From Citreicoccus inhibens (GTDB lineage: Bacteria; Myxococcota; Myxococcia; Myxococcales; Myxococcaceae), in the NCBI RefSeq assembly GCF_019039035.1, contig NZ_JAHNZT010000010.1:62001-126000 (forward strand): a DNA stretch of 64,000 bases. The letters are read 5' to 3'. This document shows, piece by piece, positions 34,922 through 63,338 of the stretch. Position 1 is the first letter of the stretch. Each line of letters opens with the position of its first letter. The notes below the pieces were generated by a model. The model had not been told where the DNA came from, ran no database searches, and was given only the letters and a program-made list of their open reading frames with translations. Both the position numbers and the translations under genes were made by a program.

Positions 34922-35037
34922 TCCACCCTCCACGCGCGAGCCCCGCGCTCGCGCCCAGTGGCCGCCACGCTACCGCGTCCACGCCGCCCGCGCGCACTCC
35001 CGCGGTGTCGCGCCACGAACATCTCCGCGAGGTTTCC

Positions 35038-36537
35038 ATGGGCCAGCTCTCCCTGCGCGCCGTGAGTGAGCCGCTGCGCCGCCATCCAGTGTGGGCTGGC
35101 GTGACGGCCACGTTCCTCGCGAGCCTGCTGCTGCGCTGGCTCTACCTGCTGGGAGCGCCGGACCGCGACTGGCCCTTCTCCATCTTCTTCTACGGCGACT
35201 CGCGCTTCTTCCACACCGCGGCGCTGGCGTGGGCCCGAGGCACCGAGCCCGAGGCCACCCTGCCCTACCACCCGCCCCTGTTCCCCTGGTTCCTGGGCCT
35301 GCTGTACCGCGCGCTCGGGGAGCCGCAGGGCAGCGCGTACCCCTACAAGCTGGGCCTCGCGGTGCTGGGCTCCGGAACGGTGGCGCTCACCTGGGCGTGG
35401 TGGCGCAAGCTGCTGGGCACCGGCTGGAGTCTGCTGGCGGCGGGACTCTACGCGTCCAGCTTCGGGTGGCTGGTGCTGTCCACCACGTACAGCAACGAGG
35501 TCCTCTACGCGCTCTTGCTCTCCGCGACCTGCGCGCTCGTGCTCGCCGGTCCGCGGTCCTGGCGCGGCGCGCTCGCCCTGGGCGCGGTGATGGGGCTGGG
35601 CACGCTCACCCGCGCCGAGCACCTGTCGTTGTGGCCCTTCCTCGTGGGCTTCGCGTGGCTTCGGCGCGAGCCCTCCACGCCGCCGCGCGCCTGGCTCTCA
35701 TGCTGGGGCGTGGCCCTGGCGGTGTCGGGGCTGGTGCTGCTGCCCTCGGCGGTGCACAACGCGCGCGTGCTGCGCGAGCTCAATGCGCGCACGCCCCAGC
35801 TCGAGCCCCTGCCCGAGTTCACGCCCGTCACCGTCTACGGCCCCATCAACTTCGCCATGGCCAACCACACCGGAGCCACGGGCGGCTTCGCGCCGGACCT
35901 CATCAACCAGGGAGGCCACAACGGCCAGCTCGACGCCACCTTGCCCGAGCACCGCCGACTGCTGTTGCACGGCTATGCCGAGGGCCTGCGCTGGCTCGTC
36001 GAGCACCCCGCCGACGCCGCGGGCCTGTTGGGCGCCAAGCTCAGCCGATGGCTGGATGGCCTCAGCCTGGGGCTCGGCGTCTCCAACCTGCCGGCGGGAC
36101 TGAGCGGCAATCGCGCGCCGGTGGATGTCTTCGTCCCCGACAGCCCCGGGCTCAAGTGGCCCCTGGCGCTGTTGCTGCTGGCGGGTATGGGACTGTCCCT
36201 GCGCGCCGCCCACCGAGACTTCCTCCTGCTCACCGGTGTGGTGGCGCACCGGCTGCTCATCACCCTGGCCTTCTTCGGCTACAGCCGCGGGATGCTCGCC
36301 GTCTTTCCAGCCCTGCTTCCCTTGCTGCTGCTCCCCCTGAAGGCCCTCGCCCAGCGGCGCGAGGCGCTCGCCGAGCGCCTGTGCGTGATCGCCACCGCCG
36401 CGCTCCTGCTCCTCTGGGTAGAGGCCGGGCTGGCGAGCGAGGGCCCGCCTCGCCGCTTCATGGCGACGGGCAGCACCGACACCGTCAGCGGCCGCCTCAT
36501 CCAGGATGACTGGGTTCGCGTCTGGCCCCGGCCCTGA
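35038..36537 (+). CDS. GT-C (family 39-like) membrane glycosyltransferase
   Basis: A 499-residue integral membrane protein with about ten hydrophobic segments and a first periplasmic loop that carries the acidic motif FFYGDSRFFH and a later YHPPLFPWFLGLLYR. This arrangement (a D or E in the first loop, then a polar-aromatic segment) is typical of GT-C enzymes such as PMT, ArnT and related families, which use polyprenyl-phosphate sugars. They glycosylate lipid A, proteins or polymers on the periplasmic side. ATG 35038 has GAGG five bases upstream; an upstream in-frame ATG at 35005 lacks this. The acceptor is unknown. Confidence 0.78.
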   Translation: MGQLSLRAVSEPLRRHPVWAGVTATFLASLLLRWLYLLGAPDRDWPFSIFFYGDSRFFHTAALAWARGTEPEATLPYHPPLFPWFLGLLYRALGEPQGSAYPYKLGLAVLGSGTVALTWAWWRKLLGTGWSLLAAGLYASSFGWLVLSTTYSNEVLYALLLSATCALVLAGPRSWRGALALGAVMGLGTLTRAEHLSLWPFLVGFAWLRREPSTPPRAWLSCWGVALAVSGLVLLPSAVHNARVLRELNARTPQLEPLPEFTPVTVYGPINFAMANHTGATGGFAPDLINQGGHNGQLDATLPEHRRLLLHGYAEGLRWLVEHPADAAGLLGAKLSRWLDGLSLGLGVSNLPAGLSGNRAPVDVFVPDSPGLKWPLALLLLAGMGLSLRAAHRDFLLLTGVVAHRLLITLAFFGYSRGMLAVFPALLPLLLLPLKALAQRREALAERLCVIATAALLLLWVEAGLASEGPPRRFMATGSTDTVSGRLIQDDWVRVWPRP

Positions 36538-36583
36538 CGCTGACCGCCCTGTAATACTCCGAGAGAGGCGGATTTTACCACAA

Positions 36584-36596
36584 GTGGATCGTCCAC
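36584..36596. promoter_or_regulatory. Palindrome upstream of the metallopeptidase gene
   Basis: GTGGA-TCG-TCCAC, a perfect 5-3-5 inverted repeat about 160 bases upstream of the peptidase start, within the most AT-rich intergenic segment nearby (36540-36690). It is a candidate operator for a secreted-protease regulator. Confidence 0.3.
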
Positions 36597-36757
36597 ATGC
36601 GGACAGTCCTACCCCGCATAAATCCAGGAGTTCGTTAAATTCAAGCACTTTAAGGAATAGCCGACATTCAAATTAAACGGAGACACGGCTACTCCGGTGG
36701 CGCTCCATCCCGGAGCGACGCAGCTCCTAACGGCTCCCGTCCGCAGTGGAGAATCGC

Positions 36758-39700
36758 ATGCGCCACTTGAGGTCAGCAGCGTGTTGTCTTGTCCTGATGT
36801 TGTCAGCCACAGGGCAGGCCCTTCAGCAGCCCCAACCCTCTCAACAGAGTGCCCTGGCTCCGAAGGCCTTCTACAAGCCAGAGCTCTCCCTCCCCGTACA
36901 GAACATGCCGTTGCAGAAGGCCCGCGCGCTGATGCCGACGCTGGGCGCGGACGCCTGGTCGGAGTTCTTCGCGCGCAACGGCAGCGGGTTCAATGTCTAT
37001 CTGGATCCGCGCACGGGCACGCCCACGGGCATCCAGGGCTCCGTGCCGCTCATCCCGGGTGACGGATTCAACAACCGCGTGTCGCTGGAGGCGGTGCGCG
37101 AGGAGATTGGCCGCTCGGTGGGTGGAGTGGATGAGTCGGTGGTGGCGGACCTGGTCTTCAAGTTCATCGCGGACAACCAGGCCGCGATCGGCGTGGACCT
37201 GCTCCAGCTCGGCTCGCCCCGCGTGACGCAGGTGGCGCCGCACCTGTGGCAGGTGCACATCCCGCAGGTGCTCAACGGCGTGCCCGTGCGCGACGCGCGC
37301 GTGGCGGCGACCATCAGCCACGGCAACCTCATCCTCCTGGGCACCGAGTCCTGGAAGAACGCGCGCATCGACACGAAGCCCGCGGTGGCCTCGGGCGAGG
37401 CGCTGACGGCGGGCAACACGTTCGTGGGCCGGCAGCTGGCGCCCAACAGCCTCTGGCAGCAGCCCACGCTGGAGATCGCCCCGTTCTCGAAGGACGGCGC
37501 GGCGTTTGGCGAGGGATATGGCCACCTGCTCGTGTGGAGCTATGGCTTCCAGAGCCCCGGTGAGTCGGAGCGCTGGAAGGTGACGGTGGATGCGCAGACG
37601 GGCGAGGTGCTCGCGCTCGAGGACGCCAACCACTACTTCGATGCCAGCATGAAGGGCGGCGTCTATCCGTCCACCAACATCGGGGTGTGCGCGTCCAACG
37701 GCACGTGCGGCACCATGCAGCCCGGCACGCCGATGCCGTGGGCGGACACGGGCTTCGCGTCGCCGAACAACTACACGGACGGCTCCGGCATCTACAACTA
37801 CAGCTCCGGAACGCTGTCGACCACGTTGTCGGGCAAGTACGTGAAGATCTCCGACGCGTGCGGCGCCTTCAGCGCCACGTCCACCACGGGCAGCCTGGAC
37901 CTGGGCGGCGTCAACAACGACCACGACTGCGTGGTGCCGGCCGGCACGTCCGCGGGCAACACCGCGGCCACCCGCTCCAGCTTCTACGAGCTGAACAAGA
38001 TCAAGGAAGTGGCGCGCGGCTGGCTGCCCACCAACACGTGGCTGCAGGGGCAGATCACCGCCAACGTGAACATCAACAGCACGTGCAACGCGTTCTGGAA
38101 CGGCACGACGGTCAACTTCTACCGCAGCGGCGGTGGCTGCCGGAACACGGGCGAAATTGGCGCCGTCTTCGATCACGAGTGGGGCCACGGCATCGACAAC
38201 TTCGACGCCAACGGCACGCTCAGCAACTCGAGCGAAGGCTACGCGGACATCGCGGCCATCTACCGGTTGCAGACCTCGTGCGTGGGCTACGGCTTCTTCC
38301 AGACGTCCAACCCGGGCTGCGGCATGACGCCGGACGGAACGGGCTACAACCAGCAGGAGTCGCAGGTCGCGGGGCAGTCCTGGTGCAACCTGCGCTGCTC
38401 CGGCGTGCGCGACGCGGACTGGGCCGCCAGCGCGCCCAACGTCCCGGCCACCCCGCAGAACTTCGTGTGCCCCATGTGCAGCTCCGGCACGGGCCCCTGC
38501 GGCAAGCAGGTGCACTGCGCCGCCTCGCCCGTGCGTCAGGCCGCGTGGGACCTCGTGACGCGCGACCTGGCGGGCGCGCCGTTCAACTACGACTCCAACA
38601 CCGCCTTCATGGTGGGCAACAAGCTGTTCTACCAGGGCAGCGGCAACGTGGGCACGTGGCACGCGTGCAACTGCACCGCCGGCACGTCCGACGGCTGCGG
38701 CGCGACCAACGGCTACATGCAGTGGCTGGCCGCAGATGACGACAACGGCAACCTGGCCGACGGCACCCCGCACATGACGGCCATCTACGCCGCCTACAAC
38801 CGCCACAACATCGCGTGCGCCACGCCCGCGCCGGTGAACGCCGGCTGCTCCGCCGGTCCGAGCAGCGCGCCCACCGCGACCGTCACGCCGGGCGACAGCC
38901 AGGTGGGCGTCAACTGGACGAGCGTCCCGGGCGCCAGCGAGTACTGGGTGATGAAGACGGAGGGCTTCGCGGGCTGCGACTTCGGCAAGGCGCGCGTGGC
39001 CACCGTCTCGGGCACCAGCTACAACGACCCGGAGGTCGCCAACGGCCGGCAGTACTGCTACTCGGTCGTCGCGGCCAGCTCCAACGCTTGCTACAGCACG
39101 GCCAGCGCCTGCGTGTGCACCACGCCGGTGTGCGCCGCGCCGACGGTCCCCGCGCTCGCGACGCCGGGCGATGGGGCCACCGCGGTGGAGCTGTCGCCCG
39201 CGCTGGACTGGGCGGATGTCTCCGGGGCCTCGGGTTACGAGGTCGAGGTGGCGACCGACTCGGCGTTCAGCAACAAGGTGGCCTCGGCCAACTCGCTGGT
39301 GAGCAGCAACTGGACGGTGACGACGTCGCTGACGGCGAACACGGTGTACTACTGGCACGCGCGCGCGGCCAACTCGTGCGGTGGCACGAGCTCCTGGTCC
39401 GCGACCCGCACGTTCACCACGCGCGGCTGCATCACGCTGGGGGCGCCCACGCTCTCCAGCCCCGCCAGCGGCGCGACGGGGGTGTCCCTCAACGCGGCGC
39501 TCGACTGGAGCGACGTGACGAGCGCGTCCACCTACGACGTCGAGCTGTCCACCGACCCGAGCTTCTCGCCGGTGGCCCGCTCCGCCAGCAGCCTGAGCAC
39601 CAGCGCGTGGAACGTGACGCCGGCGCTCTCCAACCTCACCACCTACTACTGGCACGCGCGCGCCAAGGACAGCTGTGGCGCGGGTCCGTGGAGCGCCGCG

Positions 39701-40324
39701 TCCAGCTTCACCACGACGAACATCTGCACCCCGGTGGCCGCCGCGTACAACAGCACGCTGAAGGCCCCGGCCTGCGGCGCGGTGTGTGGCTGCGACACGG
39801 GCACCACGCTCATCAACGGCCGTGGCACGCTGTCCGGCGGCATCGAGCCCAACCAGCCCAACACGCTGGGCGCCTCGTGCGCGGACGGCACCTCCGGCAC
39901 GTACCACTCCGACGAGAGCATCGACCGCATCTCGCTCAAGAGCGTGGACGAGGGCACCATCACCCCGGGCAAGCAGGTCAAGGTGGACGTCACCGTCTAC
40001 TGCTGGGGCACGTCGGACGCGTTGGACCTGTACTACACGACGAACGCCACCACGGCGCCCACGTGGACCACGCTGACCACGAACCTGGCCTGCACCGCCG
40101 CGGGGCTCACGACGTTCTCGTACACGCTGACGGTGGGCGCCAACACCGGCAACCACGCGGTGCGTGCGCAGTTCCGCTACGGCGGCACGGCGACGAGCGC
40201 GTGCGTGTCCGGCAGCTACAACGACCGCGACGACCTGGTGTTCAACGTCTCGTCGGCGGTCGCCAAGGCGAACGGGAAGGCGTCCCAGACGAAGCAGGGC
40301 CGCGCGACCCCGACGGCGCGCTGA
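36758..40324 (+). CDS. Secreted zinc metallopeptidase with FN3 repeats and shared C-terminal domain
   Basis: A 1188-residue secreted protease. The signal peptide is MRHLRSAACCLVLMLSATGQA. The propeptide has FTP/PepSY-like traits (about 60-290). The catalytic core has H473-E-W-G-H477 (FDHEWGHGID) with Glu493 in NSSEGYADI as the likely third zinc ligand, a gluzincin arrangement similar to thermolysin/M36 types. Many cysteines fill the catalytic part. Three fibronectin-III-like repeats follow (about 704-985). The last 170 residues (about 995-1167) form a separate domain that reappears at the end of the M28 peptidase at 43524. ATG 36758 has GGAGA six bases upstream; GTG 36746 is an alternative. 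It is probably used in prey or protein digestion. Confidence 0.86.
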   Translation: MRHLRSAACCLVLMLSATGQALQQPQPSQQSALAPKAFYKPELSLPVQNMPLQKARALMPTLGADAWSEFFARNGSGFNVYLDPRTGTPTGIQGSVPLIPGDGFNNRVSLEAVREEIGRSVGGVDESVVADLVFKFIADNQAAIGVDLLQLGSPRVTQVAPHLWQVHIPQVLNGVPVRDARVAATISHGNLILLGTESWKNARIDTKPAVASGEALTAGNTFVGRQLAPNSLWQQPTLEIAPFSKDGAAFGEGYGHLLVWSYGFQSPGESERWKVTVDAQTGEVLALEDANHYFDASMKGGVYPSTNIGVCASNGTCGTMQPGTPMPWADTGFASPNNYTDGSGIYNYSSGTLSTTLSGKYVKISDACGAFSATSTTGSLDLGGVNNDHDCVVPAGTSAGNTAATRSSFYELNKIKEVARGWLPTNTWLQGQITANVNINSTCNAFWNGTTVNFYRSGGGCRNTGEIGAVFDHEWGHGIDNFDANGTLSNSSEGYADIAAIYRLQTSCVGYGFFQTSNPGCGMTPDGTGYNQQESQVAGQSWCNLRCSGVRDADWAASAPNVPATPQNFVCPMCSSGTGPCGKQVHCAASPVRQAAWDLVTRDLAGAPFNYDSNTAFMVGNKLFYQGSGNVGTWHACNCTAGTSDGCGATNGYMQWLAADDDNGNLADGTPHMTAIYAAYNRHNIACATPAPVNAGCSAGPSSAPTATVTPGDSQVGVNWTSVPGASEYWVMKTEGFAGCDFGKARVATVSGTSYNDPEVANGRQYCYSVVAASSNACYSTASACVCTTPVCAAPTVPALATPGDGATAVELSPALDWADVSGASGYEVEVATDSAFSNKVASANSLVSSNWTVTTSLTANTVYYWHARAANSCGGTSSWSATRTFTTRGCITLGAPTLSSPASGATGVSLNAALDWSDVTSASTYDVELSTDPSFSPVARSASSLSTSAWNVTPALSNLTTYYWHARAKDSCGAGPWSAASSFTTTNICTPVAAAYNSTLKAPACGAVCGCDTGTTLINGRGTLSGGIEPNQPNTLGASCADGTSGTYHSDESIDRISLKSVDEGTITPGKQVKVDVTVYCWGTSDALDLYYTTNATTAPTWTTLTTNLACTAAGLTTFSYTLTVGANTGNHAVRAQFRYGGTATSACVSGSYNDRDDLVFNVSSAVAKANGKASQTKQGRATPTAR

Positions 40325-40367
40325 GGCTCCAGGCCCCGGAGCGCGGCCCCGCTCCGGAGCCTGAGCC
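40325..40367 (+). terminator. GC-rich hairpin after the metallopeptidase gene
   Basis: Three matched blocks pair: 40325-40329 with 40363-40367, AGG with CCT, and the 8-bp CCGGAGCG with CGCTCCGG. There is no T-run, so termination may be weak or Rho-dependent. Confidence 0.5.
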
Positions 40368-40386
40368 GCAGGGCCCGTGACACCGA

Positions 40387-40414
40387 GGGGCTCCTGGCAT
40401 GCGCCAGGAGCCCC
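40387..40414. terminator. Perfect 12-bp hairpin between convergent genes
   Basis: 40387-40398 pairs with 40403-40414 (GGGGCTCCTGGC and its complement), loop ATGC. It lies between the convergent peptidase and VOC genes and can act on both strands; only a short pyrimidine tract follows. Confidence 0.6.
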
Positions 40415-40434
40415 TCTCCCGTTCATCGAGCAGC

Positions 40435-40839
40435 CTAGAGCGCCCGCAGGACGACGGACGGGGCCGAGCGCTCCGCGGGGCCGTGGAACACCGTCTCGAT
40501 GTTGTTGCCGTCCGGATCCAACACGAACGCGGCGTAGTAACCCGGGTGGTACTTGCGCTCGCCAGGGGCACCGTTGTCGCGGCCCCCCGCGGCCAGGGCC
40601 ACCTGGTGGAAGCGGTGCACCGTCTCGCGGTCCGGCGCCTGGAGCGCCAGGTGGATGCGCGACGGCGTTCCCTCCGACGTGACGTAGAACTCATCCGTGT
40701 TGAAGAACGTGGGCCCCTCGCGCTGGAGGGTCAGCCCGAAGACCTCCATCACCGCGCGATAGAACCGCCGACTGGCCTCCAGGTCCTTCACCTGGATGTG
40801 CACGTGATCGAACAACCGGCCTCTGTGGAACTCCATCAT
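40435..40839 (-). CDS. VOC-family (glyoxalase/dioxygenase fold) protein
   Basis: A 134-residue protein of the vicinal oxygen chelate superfamily. FDHVHIQVKDLEASRRFYRAV carries the first metal-binding His, IHLALQAPD the second, and YYAAFVLDPDGNNIETVFHG the terminal Glu. The VOC module occurs in glyoxalases, dioxygenases and antibiotic-resistance proteins, so the substrate is open; at one domain it probably works as a dimer. ATG 40839 has AGGGG six bases upstream and is preferred to the start at 40863. Confidence 0.85.
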   Translation of the reverse strand: MMEFHRGRLFDHVHIQVKDLEASRRFYRAVMEVFGLTLQREGPTFFNTDEFYVTSEGTPSRIHLALQAPDRETVHRFHQVALAAGGRDNGAPGERKYHPGYYAAFVLDPDGNNIETVFHGPAERSAPSVVLRAL

Positions 40840-41001
40840 CGCTCGCCCCTGGGAACGAAACATCCGTTCAGTTCGCTTGCGGGGCTACCTTGCCGACCGC
40901 ACGGGTCCCGGGCAACCGGAAAGATGCGGCGCCGAGGCGCGCTGGGCAGCGCGCGCGCCACCGTGCTGTAGTCGCGCCACCCCTCACGCCAGGACACTCC
41001 G

Positions 41002-42327
41002 GTGATGCCACGTCGTCCCGTCGCGATGCTGATGGCCGTCATGTCCCTCTGCGCGCTCCCCGCCTTCGCGGGAGAGACGCCCGCGCCGCCTCCCGCGCTC
41101 GGGGCGTTGGACGCGCTGTACCCGGACCTGGACAAGCTCTACCGCGAGTTGCACCAGGCGCCGGAGCTGTCGCGGCAGGAGGAGAAGACGGCGGCGAAGC
41201 TCGCGGCGAGGCTGCGCGCGCTGGGCTACGACGTGACGACGCAGGTGGGGGGCCACGGCGTGGTGGCGCTGTTGCGCAACGGCGCGGGCCCCACGGTGAT
41301 GCTGCGCACGGAGATGGACGGGCTGCCCGTGGAGGAGAAGACGGGGTTGCCGTACGCGAGCAAGGTGACGGCGGTGGACGATGGCGGGCAGCGCGTCTCG
41401 GTGATGCACGCCTGCGGCCATGACGTGCACATGACGTCGTGGATGGGCACGGCGATGCTGCTTGGACGCGCGCGCGGCCAGTGGCGCGGCACGGTGATGC
41501 TCGTGGCGCAGCCCGCAGAGGAGCAGGGCTCGGGCGCGCGGCAGATGTTGGAGGCAGGCCTGTTCCAGCGCTTCCCCAAGCCGGACTTCGCGGTGGCCCT
41601 GCACGACAGCGGCACCGCCGAGGCGGGCACGGTGGAGTACACGCCGGGCTTCGCGCTCGCGAGCGTGGACTCGGTGGACGTCACGCTCTTTGGCAAGGGC
41701 GGCCACGGCGCGTACCCGCAGACGACGGTGGATCCGGTGGTGATGGCGGCGCGCACGGTGCTCGCGCTCCAGACGCTGGTGAGTCGCGAGAAGGACCCGC
41801 TGGAGCCCGCGGTGGTGACGGTGGGCTCCATCCACGGCGGCACCAAGCACAACATCATCCCCGACGAGGTGCGGCTCCAGCTCACCGTCCGCTCGTACAA
41901 GCCCGAGGTGCGCAAGCGGCTGCTCGAGGGAATCGAGCGCATCGTCAAGGCCGAGGCCCTCGCCTCCAACGCGCCACGTCCGCCCACCATCGCCGTCACC
42001 GAGGGCACGCCGGCCACCTACAACGAGCCCGCGCTCACCCAGCGGCTCGTCTCCGCCCTGGCGCGTGCGCTGGGTGACAAGAACCTGCGCGCGGCGCCCC
42101 CCGTCATGGGTGGAGAGGACTTCTCCGAGTACGGCCGGATGGGCATCCCCGCCACGCTGCTGTGGCTCGGCGCGGTGGAGCCGCAGCGCTACGCACAGGC
42201 CAAGCAATCGGGAGAGCCGCTCCCCTCCTTGCACTCCGCCACCTTCGCGCCGGACCGTGAGCGCACCCTGCGAACCGGCGTTTCGGCCCTCACCACCGCC
42301 GCGCTGGAGCTGCTCGGACGGCCGTGA
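41002..42327 (+). CDS. M20-family amidohydrolase (exported)
   Basis: A 441-residue zinc amidohydrolase of peptidase family M20D, similar to indole-acetyl-amino-acid hydrolases and hippurate hydrolases. The signal peptide is MPRRPVAMLMAVMSLCALPAFA, so it is exported to the periplasm or beyond. Metal ligands are visible in HACGHDVH, PAEEQGSGAR and HDSG, and the lid domain has GKGGHGAYPQTTVDP. HNIIPDEVRL and VMGGEDFSEY complete the catalytic domain. It probably releases amino acids from N-acyl amino acids or peptides. The start is GTG 41002 or ATG 41005, with AGGA seven bases before the former. Confidence 0.88.
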   Translation: MMPRRPVAMLMAVMSLCALPAFAGETPAPPPALGALDALYPDLDKLYRELHQAPELSRQEEKTAAKLAARLRALGYDVTTQVGGHGVVALLRNGAGPTVMLRTEMDGLPVEEKTGLPYASKVTAVDDGGQRVSVMHACGHDVHMTSWMGTAMLLGRARGQWRGTVMLVAQPAEEQGSGARQMLEAGLFQRFPKPDFAVALHDSGTAEAGTVEYTPGFALASVDSVDVTLFGKGGHGAYPQTTVDPVVMAARTVLALQTLVSREKDPLEPAVVTVGSIHGGTKHNIIPDEVRLQLTVRSYKPEVRKRLLEGIERIVKAEALASNAPRPPTIAVTEGTPATYNEPALTQRLVSALARALGDKNLRAAPPVMGGEDFSEYGRMGIPATLLWLGAVEPQRYAQAKQSGEPLPSLHSATFAPDRERTLRTGVSALTTAALELLGRP

Positions 42328-42520
42328 ACCGGCGCGTCAGTGTCCGCCACCTCACGCGAAGAGAGCAGCAAAACGCGCTTCTCGCGCCATGTCCGCCCGG
42401 CAAAACATGAAAACCACGGACTCACGGGCCGCGGCGTCATTCCAGACGCAACGGCGCGTTTGCCCTCTGCGATAATGGGAGACGGACTTCTCGTGTGTTG
42501 AGCCAACGGAGGGCGGGCCG

Positions 42521-42826
42521 ATGTGGGTTGAGATCATCGTCATGCCTCGGGACGTTGTAGGCGCGAGCGCGGCTGTGAAGAAGGCAGCGAAGTCCCTGGA
42601 CCGCCGGGCGGTGTACGAGCGGGGCGTGCAAGAGAGCCAACGATTCCGCGAGTCCCTGGTGGGCTATCTGGACGCACAGGGCCTGGCGGGAGGGGTGAAG
42701 TGGATGAGTGAGCCCGGCTCACTGCCGCAGGTGACGCTCGTCGCCAGCCCCACCGTGTTGGAGCAGCTTCGCCATGCGCCCCAGTTCGAAGCGGGCATGA
42801 CCATGCCCCTCGAGATGCTCCTGTAG
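42521..42826 (+). CDS. Small hypothetical protein
   Basis: A 101-residue soluble protein. It begins MWVEIIVMPRD and contains a helix rich in Lys/Arg/Ala (ASAAVKKAAKSLDRRAVYER) and a C-terminal half with PQVTLVASPTVLEQLRHAP, an alternating pattern that suggests a small alpha/beta fold. No family is recognised. GGAGGG precedes the ATG at a suitable distance. The next small gene starts 13 bases after its stop, so the two are probably one unit. Confidence 0.65.
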   Translation: MWVEIIVMPRDVVGASAAVKKAAKSLDRRAVYERGVQESQRFRESLVGYLDAQGLAGGVKWMSEPGSLPQVTLVASPTVLEQLRHAPQFEAGMTMPLEMLL

Positions 42827-42839
42827 TCCTCCCCCTGGC

Positions 42840-43106
42840 ATGCCCAACCTCTACAAGCGCATCGAGGTCATCCGCCGCACGCCCAATCGCGAGCTGATCA
42901 TCTATCGGTGCCTGGAAGTGTTGGGCCAGGGCGGCTACGTGGTACAGAGCGCGGACCGGCTGCGCGAGCCCTTCAGTCAGAAGGACCGCGATGTGCTGGA
43001 GCGCCAGTTCTGGGAGTTGCTCTCCGAGACGCCTCCCGAAGAGCGCTCCGCGCCGCATGCGACGCTGGAGCAGGCCATCGCGGCGTTCGAGTCGGAATTC
43101 GCGTAG
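42840..43106 (+). CDS. Small hypothetical protein
   Basis: An 88-residue acidic protein, MPNLYKRIEVIRRTPNRELI onward, with a strand-strand-helix-helix outline and a Glu-rich C terminus (LEQAIAAFESEFA). No family is recognised. No Shine-Dalgarno precedes the ATG, so it may depend on translation of the gene upstream, 13 bases away. The role is unknown. Confidence 0.62.
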   Translation: MPNLYKRIEVIRRTPNRELIIYRCLEVLGQGGYVVQSADRLREPFSQKDRDVLERQFWELLSETPPEERSAPHATLEQAIAAFESEFA

Positions 43107-43523
43107 CCCATCGCTGAGCGCATGGCCGTGAGCGCCTCACCGGCGCTCTGACGCAGCCGTTCACCTCGGTGCGTCATGCGCAACGGTCGCGCCGCGAACA
43201 GCTCCCCCCAACACACGACCTACACGTCTCACCTCGCGAGCATCGTCAGATTTTCCATGCTTCGCTGTTATCGCGCGCTTGACGTGCATATCTCGTATTA
43301 CACAGGATGCGCCACCCGCGGTGCCTGACGCCCTCTTGGGTCATGCACGGATGCGGGGCACTTGTGTCGTGCCGAAAACAGGGGGCTTCGCGCGGGGTCG
43401 GGCCGGGGGTGCGCGCGGGTAGCGCCGTTGAATCCGCCACACCGGGCACGCAGTCTCCCTGCGCTTCGGGGTCCACCCGTCCGCACAGGGCTCACGCGGG
43501 TTCAACCCGCACCGGAGGGGTTC
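43107..43523. other. Intergenic region upstream of the M28 peptidase gene
   Basis: A 417-base gap. No coding frame is convincing, although the frame of the peptidase stays open back to 43362. An AT-rich island at 43240-43310 contains TTGACG and TATTACACA in a region likely to be the promoter, but no correctly spaced -35/-10 pair can be set. GGAGGGG just before 43524 is a strong ribosome site. Confidence 0.5.
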
Positions 43524-45542
43524 ATGTACTGGAAGAGGCTGGCGGCCGTCGCCACGCTGCTCTGCTGCACCACGACGTCCGCCTGGGCAGCCGACCGCGA
43601 GGTCTGGGTCACGCTCGGCACGGACACCGTGAGCGAGGTCCAAGCGGCACTGAAGGACTCGGGCGCGGGCGTGGAGGGCCGCGAACAGAACGGCATCCAC
43701 GTGCTCAAGGTCCACGAGTCGCAGCTCGTCGTCATCGCGCGCGTGATGCACGACCGCTTCAACCGCTGCGGCGGCTTCGTGACGCACGACACGCAAGAGC
43801 AGGCGAACGCGGAGCTGCGCTCCACGCCCACCTCGCTGGCGACCGCGGTGGCCTACACCATCGACAACGCCGCGGTGGTCAACTCGCTCGTCGGCGGCCT
43901 GAGCGAGTCCACCCTGCGCGGCACCATCAGCTCGCTGGCGAGCTTCACCAACCGCTACTACACGTCCCAGACGGGCGTGGACGCGGCCAACTGGCTGAAG
44001 ACCGAGTGGACCAACATCGCGGCGGGCCGCTCGGACATCTCCGTGCAGCTCTTCACACACTCCACCTGGGCCCAGCCCTCCGTCATCCTCACCATCACCG
44101 GCACCACGAGCCCCAGCGAAGTCGTCGTGCTCGGCGGCCACCTGGACTCCATCAACCTGAACAACACGGCGGGCGTCGCGCCCGGCGCGGACGATGATGC
44201 CTCCGGCGTCGCCACCCTCTCCGAGGTGCTCCGCGCGGTGGTGGCCAAGGGCTACAAGCCGGCCCGCACCGTGAAGCTCATGGGCTACTCCGGCGAGGAG
44301 GGCGGCCTCAAGGGCTCCAAGGAGATCGCCGCCGCGTACAAGACCGCGGGCACCAACGTCGTGGGCGCGCTCCAACTCGACATGGTCAACTACCGCGGCT
44401 CGTCGTGGGAGGTGACCATCGTCACCGACAACACCAACGCCGCGCAGAACACCTTCCTCACCAACCTCATCAACACGTACACGGGCTACACGTGGACCAA
44501 CATCACGTGCGGCTACGCGTGCTCGGACCACGCCTCGTGGACCAGCCAGGGCTACCCGGCGTCCATCCCGTTCGAGGCGCTGATGAGCGAGTACAACCCG
44601 TACATCCACACGGCCAATGACACGCTGGCCAACAGCAGCGGTGGCACGGCGGACAACGCCCTCAAGTTCGCGAAGATCGCCGCCGCGTACATGGCCGAGC
44701 TCGCCAAGGGCGTCGTCGGTGGCGGCGGCCCGCCGGACACCACGCCTCCCACCGTGTCGCTCACCGCGCCGACCGGCGGCACCGTCTCCGGTTCCGTGAC
44801 GCTGTCCGCGACGGCCAGCGACAACGTGGGCGTCAGCCGCGTGGACTTCCTCGTGGATGGCGCGGTGGTGAACTCGGACTTCTCCTCTCCGTACAGCTAC
44901 GCGTGGGACTCCACCACGGCCAGCAATGCCAGCCACACCGTCTCCGCCGTCGCGTATGACGGGGCGGGGAACTCCACGGCGAGCAGCGCCGTGACGGTGA
45001 CGGTGGCCAACACCGTCTTCACCGCCGTCTACAACGCCACGCTCAAGGCCCCCGCCTGCGCCAGCGTGGGCACCGCGTGCGACTCGGGCACGCTGCTCAC
45101 CGGCCGCGGCACCATGAGCCCCGCCGAGACCAACGCGCCCAACACCCTGGCGGGCTCCCCCTGCGCGGATGGCGCGTCCGGCACGTACCACGCGGATGAG
45201 TCCAACGACCGCATCAAGGTCAGCTCGGTGAACGGAACCGCGTTCGGCGCGGGCAAGCAGGTCAAGGTCGAGGCCACCGTGTGGGCCTACTCCTCGTACT
45301 CCTCTGACAAGTTGGATCTCTACTACGCGGCCAACGCGAACAGCCCCACGTGGACGCTCATCGGCACGCTGTCTCCCACCGTGGCCGGCGCGCAGACCTT
45401 GTCCGCGACGTACACGCTGCCCGCCGGTTCGCTCCAGGCCGTGCGCGCGCGCTTCCGCTACCAGGGCTCCGCCGCCGCGTGCGGCACGGGCTCGGTCTCG
45501 TACGACGACCAGGACGACCTCGTGTTCGCCGTGGGTCCGTGA
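43524..45542 (+). CDS. Secreted M28 aminopeptidase with Ig-like and shared C-terminal domains
   Basis: A 672-residue secreted zinc aminopeptidase similar to Vibrio/Aeromonas leucine aminopeptidase. The signal peptide is MYWKRLAAVATLLCCTTTSAWA. A propeptide is followed by the M28 core with its five metal ligands: His206 in GGHLDS, an Asp in GADDDASG (223-225), Glu258-Glu259 in YSGEEGG, Asp286 in QLDMVNY and His362 in YIHTANDT. An Ig-like module (about 405-495) follows. The last 170 residues (about 499-670) match the C-terminal domain of the 36758 metallopeptidase. ATG 43524 has GGAGGGG immediately upstream and sets the signal peptide; longer starts do not. It probably digests peptides outside the cell. 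Confidence 0.9.
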   Translation: MYWKRLAAVATLLCCTTTSAWAADREVWVTLGTDTVSEVQAALKDSGAGVEGREQNGIHVLKVHESQLVVIARVMHDRFNRCGGFVTHDTQEQANAELRSTPTSLATAVAYTIDNAAVVNSLVGGLSESTLRGTISSLASFTNRYYTSQTGVDAANWLKTEWTNIAAGRSDISVQLFTHSTWAQPSVILTITGTTSPSEVVVLGGHLDSINLNNTAGVAPGADDDASGVATLSEVLRAVVAKGYKPARTVKLMGYSGEEGGLKGSKEIAAAYKTAGTNVVGALQLDMVNYRGSSWEVTIVTDNTNAAQNTFLTNLINTYTGYTWTNITCGYACSDHASWTSQGYPASIPFEALMSEYNPYIHTANDTLANSSGGTADNALKFAKIAAAYMAELAKGVVGGGGPPDTTPPTVSLTAPTGGTVSGSVTLSATASDNVGVSRVDFLVDGAVVNSDFSSPYSYAWDSTTASNASHTVSAVAYDGAGNSTASSAVTVTVANTVFTAVYNATLKAPACASVGTACDSGTLLTGRGTMSPAETNAPNTLAGSPCADGASGTYHADESNDRIKVSSVNGTAFGAGKQVKVEATVWAYSSYSSDKLDLYYAANANSPTWTLIGTLSPTVAGAQTLSATYTLPAGSLQAVRARFRYQGSAAACGTGSVSYDDQDDLVFAVGP

Positions 45543-61913: not shown

Positions 61914-63338
61914 ATGGCGGAGGTCCTGGAGGTCCCAGCAGGTCGGCAGCCCACGGTCCGACCGCACACATCCACGGCGCGGATCGTCCTCATCTCCGCG
62001 GTGGCGGCGCTCGGGGGGTTCCTCTTCGGCTTCGACACGGCCGTCATCAACGGCACCGTGGGCGCGCTGGCCACCGAGTTCCGGGCGAGCGCGTGGGCCC
62101 TGGGCCTGTGTGTCTCGTCGGCCCTCGTCGGCTCGGCGGTGGGCGCGTTCTTCGCCGGGCGGCTGGCGGATCACTTCGGGCGCACGCGCGTCATGGCCAT
62201 CGCCTCGGGCCTGTTCATCCTCAGCGCGCTGGGCTCGGGGCTCGCGTTCGCGCTGTGGGACTTGAGCATCTGGCGACTCATCGGCGGACTGTCGGTCGGC
62301 ATCGCCAGCGTCGTCGTGCCGGCCTACATCGCGGAGATCGCCCCGGCCCACCTGCGGGGCCGATTGGGCTCGCTCCAGCAGCTCGCCATCGTGGTGGGCA
62401 TCTTCATGGCGCTGTTGGGGGACTTCGCCATCGCGCGCAGCGCGGGCTCCGCGTCCAACCCGCTGTGGTTCGGCATCACCGCGTGGCGCTGGATGTTCTG
62501 GAGCGGCCTGCCGCCCGCGCTGCTCTACGGCGTGGGCTCGCTCTTCATCCCCGAGTCGCCGCGCTACCTGGTGGCCAAGGGGCGCGAGCAGGAGGCGCTC
62601 GGCGTGCTGCGCGACATCATCGGAGACACCGCGCCGTCCAAGGTGGTGGAGATCCGCAAGTCGCTGCGCGCGGACCGGCCCGCTCGCATGGCGGACCTGC
62701 GGGGCGCTCGTCTGGGGCTTCAGCCCATCGTCTGGGTCGGCATCGTCCTCGCCGTGCTCCAGCAGTTCGTGGGCATCAACGTCATCTTCTATTACTCCAG
62801 CGTGCTGTGGCAGGCGGTGGGCTTCTCCGAGCAGGACTCGCTGCTCATCACCGTCATCACCAGCGTCACCAACATCGTCACCACGCTGGTGGCCATCGCG
62901 TGCGTGGACAAGATCGGCCGCAGGCCGCTGTTGCTCGCGGGCTCGGTGGGCATGGCGCTCACGCTGGGGCTCTTGGCCTATCTCTTCGGCACCGCGCCGC
63001 TGGACGCGCACGGCAACCCCGTGTTGCATGGCGCGGCCGGAACCACGGCGCTGGTGGCCGCGAACCTCTACGTCGTCAGCTTCGGGTTCTCGTGGGGCCC
63101 GGTGATGTGGGTGCTCTTGGGAGAGATGTTCCCCAATCGCATCCGCGCGCTCGCCCTGTCGCTGGCGGCCATGGCCCAGTGGATCGCCAACTTCATCGTG
63201 TCGGTGACCTTCCCCGTGCTGGCGAACGTGGGGCTGGGCTGGGCTTATGGCCTCTACACGGCGGCCGCCGTGTTCTCGTTCTACTTCACCCTTCGCCACA
63301 TCCCCGAGACGAAGGGCCGGGAGCTGGAGACGATGTAG
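61914..63338 (+). CDS. Sugar porter (MFS) transporter
   Basis: A 474-residue 12-helix major facilitator of the sugar porter family. Signatures are GGFLFGFDTAVINGTVG in helix 1, GRLADHFGRTRV (loop 2-3), the Arg-x-x-Gly motif LRGRLGS, PESPRYLVAKGR (loop 6-7), QQFVGINVIFYYSSV in helix 7, DKIGRRPLL and the terminal PETKGREL. It imports a hexose or polyol by proton symport; the substrate is unknown. GGGGGG just before ATG 61914 is the likely ribosome site. It is convergent with the branching-enzyme gene, three bases apart; both belong to carbohydrate metabolism. Confidence 0.92.
   Translation: MAEVLEVPAGRQPTVRPHTSTARIVLISAVAALGGFLFGFDTAVINGTVGALATEFRASAWALGLCVSSALVGSAVGAFFAGRLADHFGRTRVMAIASGLFILSALGSGLAFALWDLSIWRLIGGLSVGIASVVVPAYIAEIAPAHLRGRLGSLQQLAIVVGIFMALLGDFAIARSAGSASNPLWFGITAWRWMFWSGLPPALLYGVGSLFIPESPRYLVAKGREQEALGVLRDIIGDTAPSKVVEIRKSLRADRPARMADLRGARLGLQPIVWVGIVLAVLQQFVGINVIFYYSSVLWQAVGFSEQDSLLITVITSVTNIVTTLVAIACVDKIGRRPLLLAGSVGMALTLGLLAYLFGTAPLDAHGNPVLHGAAGTTALVAANLYVVSFGFSWGPVMWVLLGEMFPNRIRALALSLAAMAQWIANFIVSVTFPVLANVGLGWAYGLYTAAAVFSFYFTLRHIPETKGRELETM

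Follow-up and report, generated by a model that had tools for sequence, protein, structure and literature searches.

The 64-kb stretch of the Citreicoccus inhibens genome analyzed here (positions 62,001 to 126,000 of contig NZ_JAHNZT010000010.1; hereafter, the window) encodes two metallopeptidases that end in a related tail of about 170 residues, and this shared domain is the subject of the present study. All coordinates are those of the window, and features are on the + strand unless stated otherwise. The first protein is a putative zinc metallopeptidase of the HEWGH type (1188 amino acids; 36758..40324), for which an ATG start was chosen in the translation; a longer open reading frame would begin with the GTG codon at 36746. 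From the N to the C terminus it consists of a signal peptide, a propeptide region, an unclassified catalytic region, Ig/FnIII-like repeats, the shared tail, and a 24-residue extension. The Ig/FnIII-like repeats, two in number (39140..39730, approximate limits; Pfam Ig_Rha78A_N, two stretches, E-value 1e-7), were the only part of this protein matched by Pfam above the cut-off, with a PepSY match remaining below threshold. The second protein is an M28 aminopeptidase (672 amino acids; 43524..45542), in which translation and Pfam matches revealed a signal peptide, a Peptidase_M28 catalytic domain (residues 187-379; 44082..44660; PF04389, E-value 1e-33, 117 bits), a Big_7 Ig-like linker domain (residues 409-475; 44748..44948; PF17957, E-value 4e-18, 66 bits), and the shared tail, followed by 2 residues. 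The closest NCBIfam model for this protein was the aminopeptidase LapA, under the cut-off.

The shared domain spans 39731..40249 in the HEWGH protein (copy 1) and 45018..45533 in the M28 protein (copy 2), and a profile search of the window's own genome detected these two copies only. Alignment by BLASTP revealed the two tails to be homologous over 176 columns, with 97 identities (55%, E-value 2e-50), and their Smith-Waterman score of 387 compared with a mean of 38 (standard deviation 6.8, maximum 80) for 1000 shuffles. Seven motifs were found in the same order in both tails, and when the window was searched in all six frames, the regular expression for each motif gave two hits and no more. When the parts of the two proteins that precede the tail were compared, no significant similarity was detected (best E-value 0.15); thus, the claim of an earlier note on this DNA, that the same tail with an ordered set of motifs is carried by two unrelated enzymes, holds.

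Host proteins and position of the domain

To place the domain within its hosts, 174 distinct host proteins were extracted and classed by host type and domain position; the counts per host class include orthologues and are, as such, not independent. Among the placed hosts, the domain was C-terminal in 44 of 49 HEWGH proteins and in 43 of 44 M28 proteins. All 15 placed S8 (subtilase) proteins carried it internally, and all 5 placed RCC1-propeller proteins carried it at the N terminus, where it directly follows a lipoprotein-like signal peptide. A less biased census took in all copies of two copy-rich genomes, with a protein split over two loci counted once. Here, 45 copies were distributed over 31 proteins, of which 10 carried their final copy no more than 30 residues from the C terminus while 21 ended otherwise. 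Some proteins contained two or three copies in tandem, and in one case the domain was free-standing, with a lipoprotein of about 220 residues (L215) comprising little besides it. Host domains identified by Pfam included M28, S8 with Inhibitor_I9, Kelch, RCC1, FG-GAP, F5/8C, metallophosphatase, BNR-like, and Pro-kumamolisin peptidase. The domain, therefore, occurs in a number of secreted proteins, catalytic or of the propeller type, that are unrelated to one another and have signal peptides of their own, as would be expected of a modular extracytoplasmic accessory domain; the signal peptides, which were judged by a hydropathy rule only, indicate that its location is most likely extracytoplasmic. 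In a separate observation, four giant lipoproteins (about 1700-2220 amino acids) with two or three domain copies each were found to be encoded side by side at one locus (L212-L213, G002:C1:6788000-6820000), some of them subtilases and with many Big_7 repeats.

These positions bear on the idea preferred by the earlier note, that of a sorting or anchoring tail; a C-terminal sorting, secretion, or anchoring signal of this kind would be comparable to MYXO-CTERM or the C-terminal domain of the type IX secretion system (T9SS). MYXO-CTERM, in which a short Cys motif, a transmembrane helix, and an Arg-rich end follow one another at the very C terminus (PMC11980579), resembles the tail in being a conserved C-terminal feature common to many exported myxobacterial proteins, and the secreted nature of the hosts, together with the C-terminal placement in most HEWGH and M28 proteins, would fit such a signal. 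The tail differs, however, in being a folded domain of 170 residues that is free in position and devoid of a transmembrane helix. No such helix or other hydrophobic C-terminal segment was found in either tail (maximum 19-residue hydropathy over the last 60 residues of 0.24 for HEWGH and 0.59 for M28), the tripartite end of the MYXO-CTERM type was likewise not found in either, and no MYXO-CTERM or T9SS C-terminal model was listed among the NCBIfam matches of the tails. Secretion and sorting domains in general occupy the extreme C terminus, whereas only the 10 of 31 hosts noted above end in this domain, and entire host classes carry it internally or N-terminally. Finally, the hosts have signal peptides or lipoboxes of their own. 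A sorting or anchoring tail was rejected on the grounds of position, the tandem and free-standing copies, and the lack of a transmembrane helix, and we consider this function very improbable. Instead, the variety of positions and hosts reveals a position-free module that is shuffled among secreted and surface proteins rather than a C-terminal address label. The expectation that the module would help to find further extracytoplasmic proteins was borne out by the profile searches and host annotations, which returned secreted and lipoprotein hosts.

Distribution and evolution of the domain

The domain was detected in 69 of the 96 genomes of the window's family, where copy numbers reached 25, and in a Myxococcota sample, where 77 of 195 genomes had it. 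It was also present in 15 of 297 Acidobacteriota genomes and in 7 of 148 genomes of a DPANN-archaeal phylum, the latter sampled after a Woesearchaeota contig had led to it; the proposal that the tail marks secreted proteins 'of this lineage' was in this respect too narrow. Four archaeal loci were of 34-43% GC and retained most of the key residues described below, which argues that they are not simply contamination by high-GC bacteria. The DPANN copies (L231-L234, L166, and L185) mostly reside in very large proteins, with frames of about 650-4500 amino acids. Within the window's family the copy number is uneven, with two in the window's genus (G000 and G014), 25 in a larger relative (G041), and none in several others. 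The plasmid sequences searched were without a match. Two viral contigs of IMG/VR (L203 and L204) encode the domain, with a Pro-kumamolisin peptidase as the host protein in L204; these contigs are possibly cellular sequence within the viral set.

The relationship among copies was examined to determine how the pairing of domain and host arose. Each of the two window tails clustered with orthologous tails that other Myxococcaceae carry on the same class of host, and not with the other window tail (HEWGH set, 99*); recent duplication between the two neighboring genes was rejected on this ground. In a maximum-likelihood tree of 45 copies, a single origin across Myxococcota and Acidobacteriota was rejected for the HEWGH tails (approximately unbiased test, p-AU 1.9e-10), and a single origin across the phyla was also rejected for the M28 tails (p-AU 5.2e-6). 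The catalytic regions of the HEWGH proteins are homologous between Myxococcota and Acidobacteriota, although their tails do not group. Since the tree rejects a single tail origin per host class, the pairing apparently arose repeatedly, with the same peptidase families acquiring the module more than once.

The presence of very similar sequence in very different hosts suggests one partner, and this partner could be a protein. In such a case the domain would be a protein-protein docking module, similar to a dockerin, and the hydrolases would be assembled into a complex on a common scaffold or outer-membrane receptor. Proteomics of Myxococcus xanthus outer-membrane vesicles lists M28, S8, RCC1, and F5/8C proteins together (PMC4158809), a correspondence with the hosts found here at the level of protein kind. 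However, no candidate scaffold was identified, and a partner specific to one lineage is disfavored by the occurrence of the domain in both Acidobacteriota and DPANN archaea; docking is regarded as unlikely.

Relatives, predicted fold, and conserved residues

The tail had no match above the cut-off in Pfam-A or NCBIfam, and neither a sequence search nor a profile search of the PDB revealed relatives (up to E-values of 1 and 10). A description of the domain was not found in the literature searched, with most subscription journals outside that search. Three Pfam families were compared with the tail. The first was CBM_4_9 (PF02018), a carbohydrate-binding jelly roll that, like the tail, is an extracellular beta-sandwich accessory domain of secreted enzymes; its sub-threshold matches were colinear, with tail residues ~45-145 corresponding to profile positions 28-129. 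The tail is distinguished from CBM_4_9 by invariants of its own (E..PNT, DES, and DxDD) and by four cysteines. Membership was rejected on the sub-threshold score, and a profile-profile comparison was not significant. The second was GEVED (PF20009), a stalk domain of fibrillar adhesins (PMC10952558). By eye, GEVED and the tail have their strand motifs in a comparable order, the former ending in R...ExEDY and the latter in R...DxDDL; however, GEVED is about 80 residues in length compared with the 170 of the tail, the motif of which is DxDD(L/V). One tail-bearing protein matched GEVED weakly (21.1 versus a cut-off of 24.4 bits), GEVED was absent from the Pfam listing at an E-value of 1 for every member of domain alignment A2, and hhalign returned a probability of 1-3%, with a score within or just above those of column shuffles. 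Thus, while the motif order was suggestive by eye, GEVED membership was also rejected on the Pfam scores, which were below the cut-off, and the hhalign comparison was not significant. The third was Big_7 (PF17957), likewise a repeated extracellular module and one that occurs in the same host proteins; it differs in that it forms a separate domain before or after the tail in many hosts, and the tail does not match the Big_7 model. As kinship to CBM_4_9 and GEVED was not significant, the tail is assigned here to a family of extracytoplasmic accessory domains that has no name as yet.

The tail was predicted by AlphaFold2 (28 sequences) to form a beta-sandwich, with a mean pLDDT of 86.4 and a pTM of 0.86. 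The top fold matches by Foldseek and VIA-align were glycan-binding beta-sandwiches, including the carbohydrate-binding domains of Wzt and a porphyran-binding carbohydrate-binding module. The match to the Wzt domain 8dky (Z 8.5, 111 residues, 2.6 A) was near the background of the aligner, and the Foldseek match to Wzt 5hno (E-value 3.7e-4, TM 0.41) was also near background. The C-terminal domain of Wzt (PDB 8dky, 6o14, and 5hno) is a beta-sandwich that binds glycan; it shares 11-17% identity with the tail and differs in being part of an ABC transporter and not a module of secreted proteins.

Conserved residues were identified in 160 non-redundant copies, with residue 1 of the tail numbered from position 45018. 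Found to be invariant or nearly so were (i) the cysteines C14, C21, C49, and C155; (ii) R30, E37, P41-N42-T43, D51, G55, and D60-E61-S62; and (iii) W112, R143, D164, D166, and D167. The conserved acidic loop is represented by CADGTSGTYHSDESIDR in copy 1 (39878..39928) and by CADGASGTYHADES in copy 2 (C49-S62; 45162..45203), and the conserved DxDD, which adjoins the N side of the last strand in copy 1, is located at 40223..40234 in that copy and at 45507..45518 in copy 2 (D164, D166, and D167). Most of the near-invariant residues are kept in the archaeal copies. The pattern suggests that the four cysteines form two disulfides and that the acidic set may be a metal site. Three further cysteines (P0003 residues 19, 91, and 121) were found in the tails of myxococcal HEWGH proteins, copy 1 included; all three are present in 28 copies, outside of which they are almost absent.

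The cysteines and acidic cluster would fit a metal- and disulfide-stabilized core, and a structural role was considered in which the domain would serve as an Ig-like spacer or cap, maintaining the fold and protease resistance of secreted proteins, and would have no ligand of its own. That its neighbors are Big_7, PKD, and FnIII-like repeats, which are themselves spacers, and that tandem copies exist are in line with such a role. A mere spacer does not, however, explain the free-standing copy in the ~220-residue lipoprotein, and the constraint on one constellation in Myxococcota, Acidobacteriota, and archaea is, in our judgment, tighter than usual for spacers. We view a purely structural module as possible but the less probable account.

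Genomic context of the two peptidase genes

Residues 285-700 of the HEWGH protein (37610..38857) make up its catalytic region, with the HEWGH motif at 38174-38188 and SEGYADI downstream. Sequence searches of this region against Pfam, NCBIfam, and the PDB were without a match, the PDB search returning just two capsid rows at an E-value of 0.09 that were judged to be chance, and an AlphaFold2 model based on 13 sequences was unusable (pLDDT 35). Homologues of about 45% identity over 414 residues were found in Acidobacteriota, and the region may represent an unclassified peptidase family. The extension that follows copy 1 (40250..40321) is basic, 24 residues in length (...KQGRATPTAR), and of a type found in HEWGH hosts only: in HEWGH proteins the domain is followed by a conserved basic extension of 22-26 residues, in many cases with (Q/R)GR...R at its end, while M28 hosts are without it. 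Extensions similar to that of the window were also detected in HEWGH proteins of Corallococcus and Myxococcus, and M. xanthus AM003 carries the orthologues of the two peptidase genes. The gene order of PMT_2-like, HEWGH, VOC (reverse strand), and M28 (35005-45542 in the window) is retained in Corallococcus loci (L033-L035, L039, and L052), compared with which the window has an additional gene between VOC and M28. This gene, located between the HEWGH and M28 genes, encodes a secreted M20-family peptidase/amidohydrolase (41002..42327; PF01546, E-value 3e-32; signal peptide by eye) that does not carry the shared tail.

Proposed function

Of the three functions offered by the earlier note (sorting, anchoring, and substrate binding), substrate binding ranks first as a candidate. 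We propose, with moderate confidence, that the tail acts in binding, as a tether by which enzymes and lipoproteins are held to a surface or glycan ligand that they have in common. According to this proposal, an autonomous extracytoplasmic beta-sandwich of about 170 residues, bearing disulfides and one nearly invariant acidic/Trp/Arg constellation, would be placed C-terminally in both window peptidases via Ig-like linkers; the endopeptidase, the aminopeptidase, and the lipoprotein hosts would bind the same surface or glycan ligand, perhaps with the participation of a metal ion, for instance Ca2+, held in the domain, and the tethered enzymes would thereby act on the same material. The homology, modularity, host range, conservation, and predicted fold of the domain, and by tree test its repeated recruitment, are results of the analysis, whereas binding of a metal and of a ligand by the tail is inferred. 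Two observations favor a common ligand, namely that peptidases apparently recruited the module repeatedly and that hosts of many kinds share a single conserved constellation.

Confidence in a tether is only moderate, as the fold evidence is weak and the similarity to CBM_4_9 is sub-threshold, and several points weigh against it. The CBM_4_9 matches were under the Pfam gathering cut-off in every member tried (best 22.7 versus 25.9 bits), and hhalign of the tail with CBM_4_9 gave a probability of ~2% (P 0.02) against a shallow set of 7 sequences, with a score that was equaled by the best of 30 column shuffles. The AlphaFold2 model was poor at tail residues 31-38. The best fold match had a Z of 8.5 compared with the 7-8 typical of models without clear relatives, and the Foldseek TM was ~0.4, such that the label 'glycan-binding' would derive from a weak resemblance in predicted fold. 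In addition, a structural core of metal and disulfides would equally give rise to invariant acidic residues and cysteines, and homogenization of tails within genomes could leave the same signal in the tree as repeated recruitment. A more far-reaching version of the tether is that the tail is an undescribed, metal-dependent domain for the recognition of surfaces or glycans that both bacteria and DPANN archaea possess and that has a single invariant binding constellation; Myxococcota and Acidobacteriota would have recruited it independently to the same families of peptidase, and it would hold secreted hydrolases on prey or matrix polymers. This version is doubtful and is put forward tentatively.

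The domain is common in myxobacteria, with as many as 25 copies per genome, and is present in Acidobacteriota and DPANN archaea, yet no Pfam-A or NCBIfam model recognizes it above the cut-off. A profile of the domain would flag exported hydrolases and lipoproteins, many of which are otherwise unannotated, and its conserved residues (E, DES, W, R, and DxDD) provide a concrete candidate site for mutagenesis. If one ligand is bound, its identity would reveal the target of the enzymes that predatory and soil bacteria secrete, and if the far-reaching version outlined above applies, a large part of the secreted arsenal of a predator would be connected by a single ligand.

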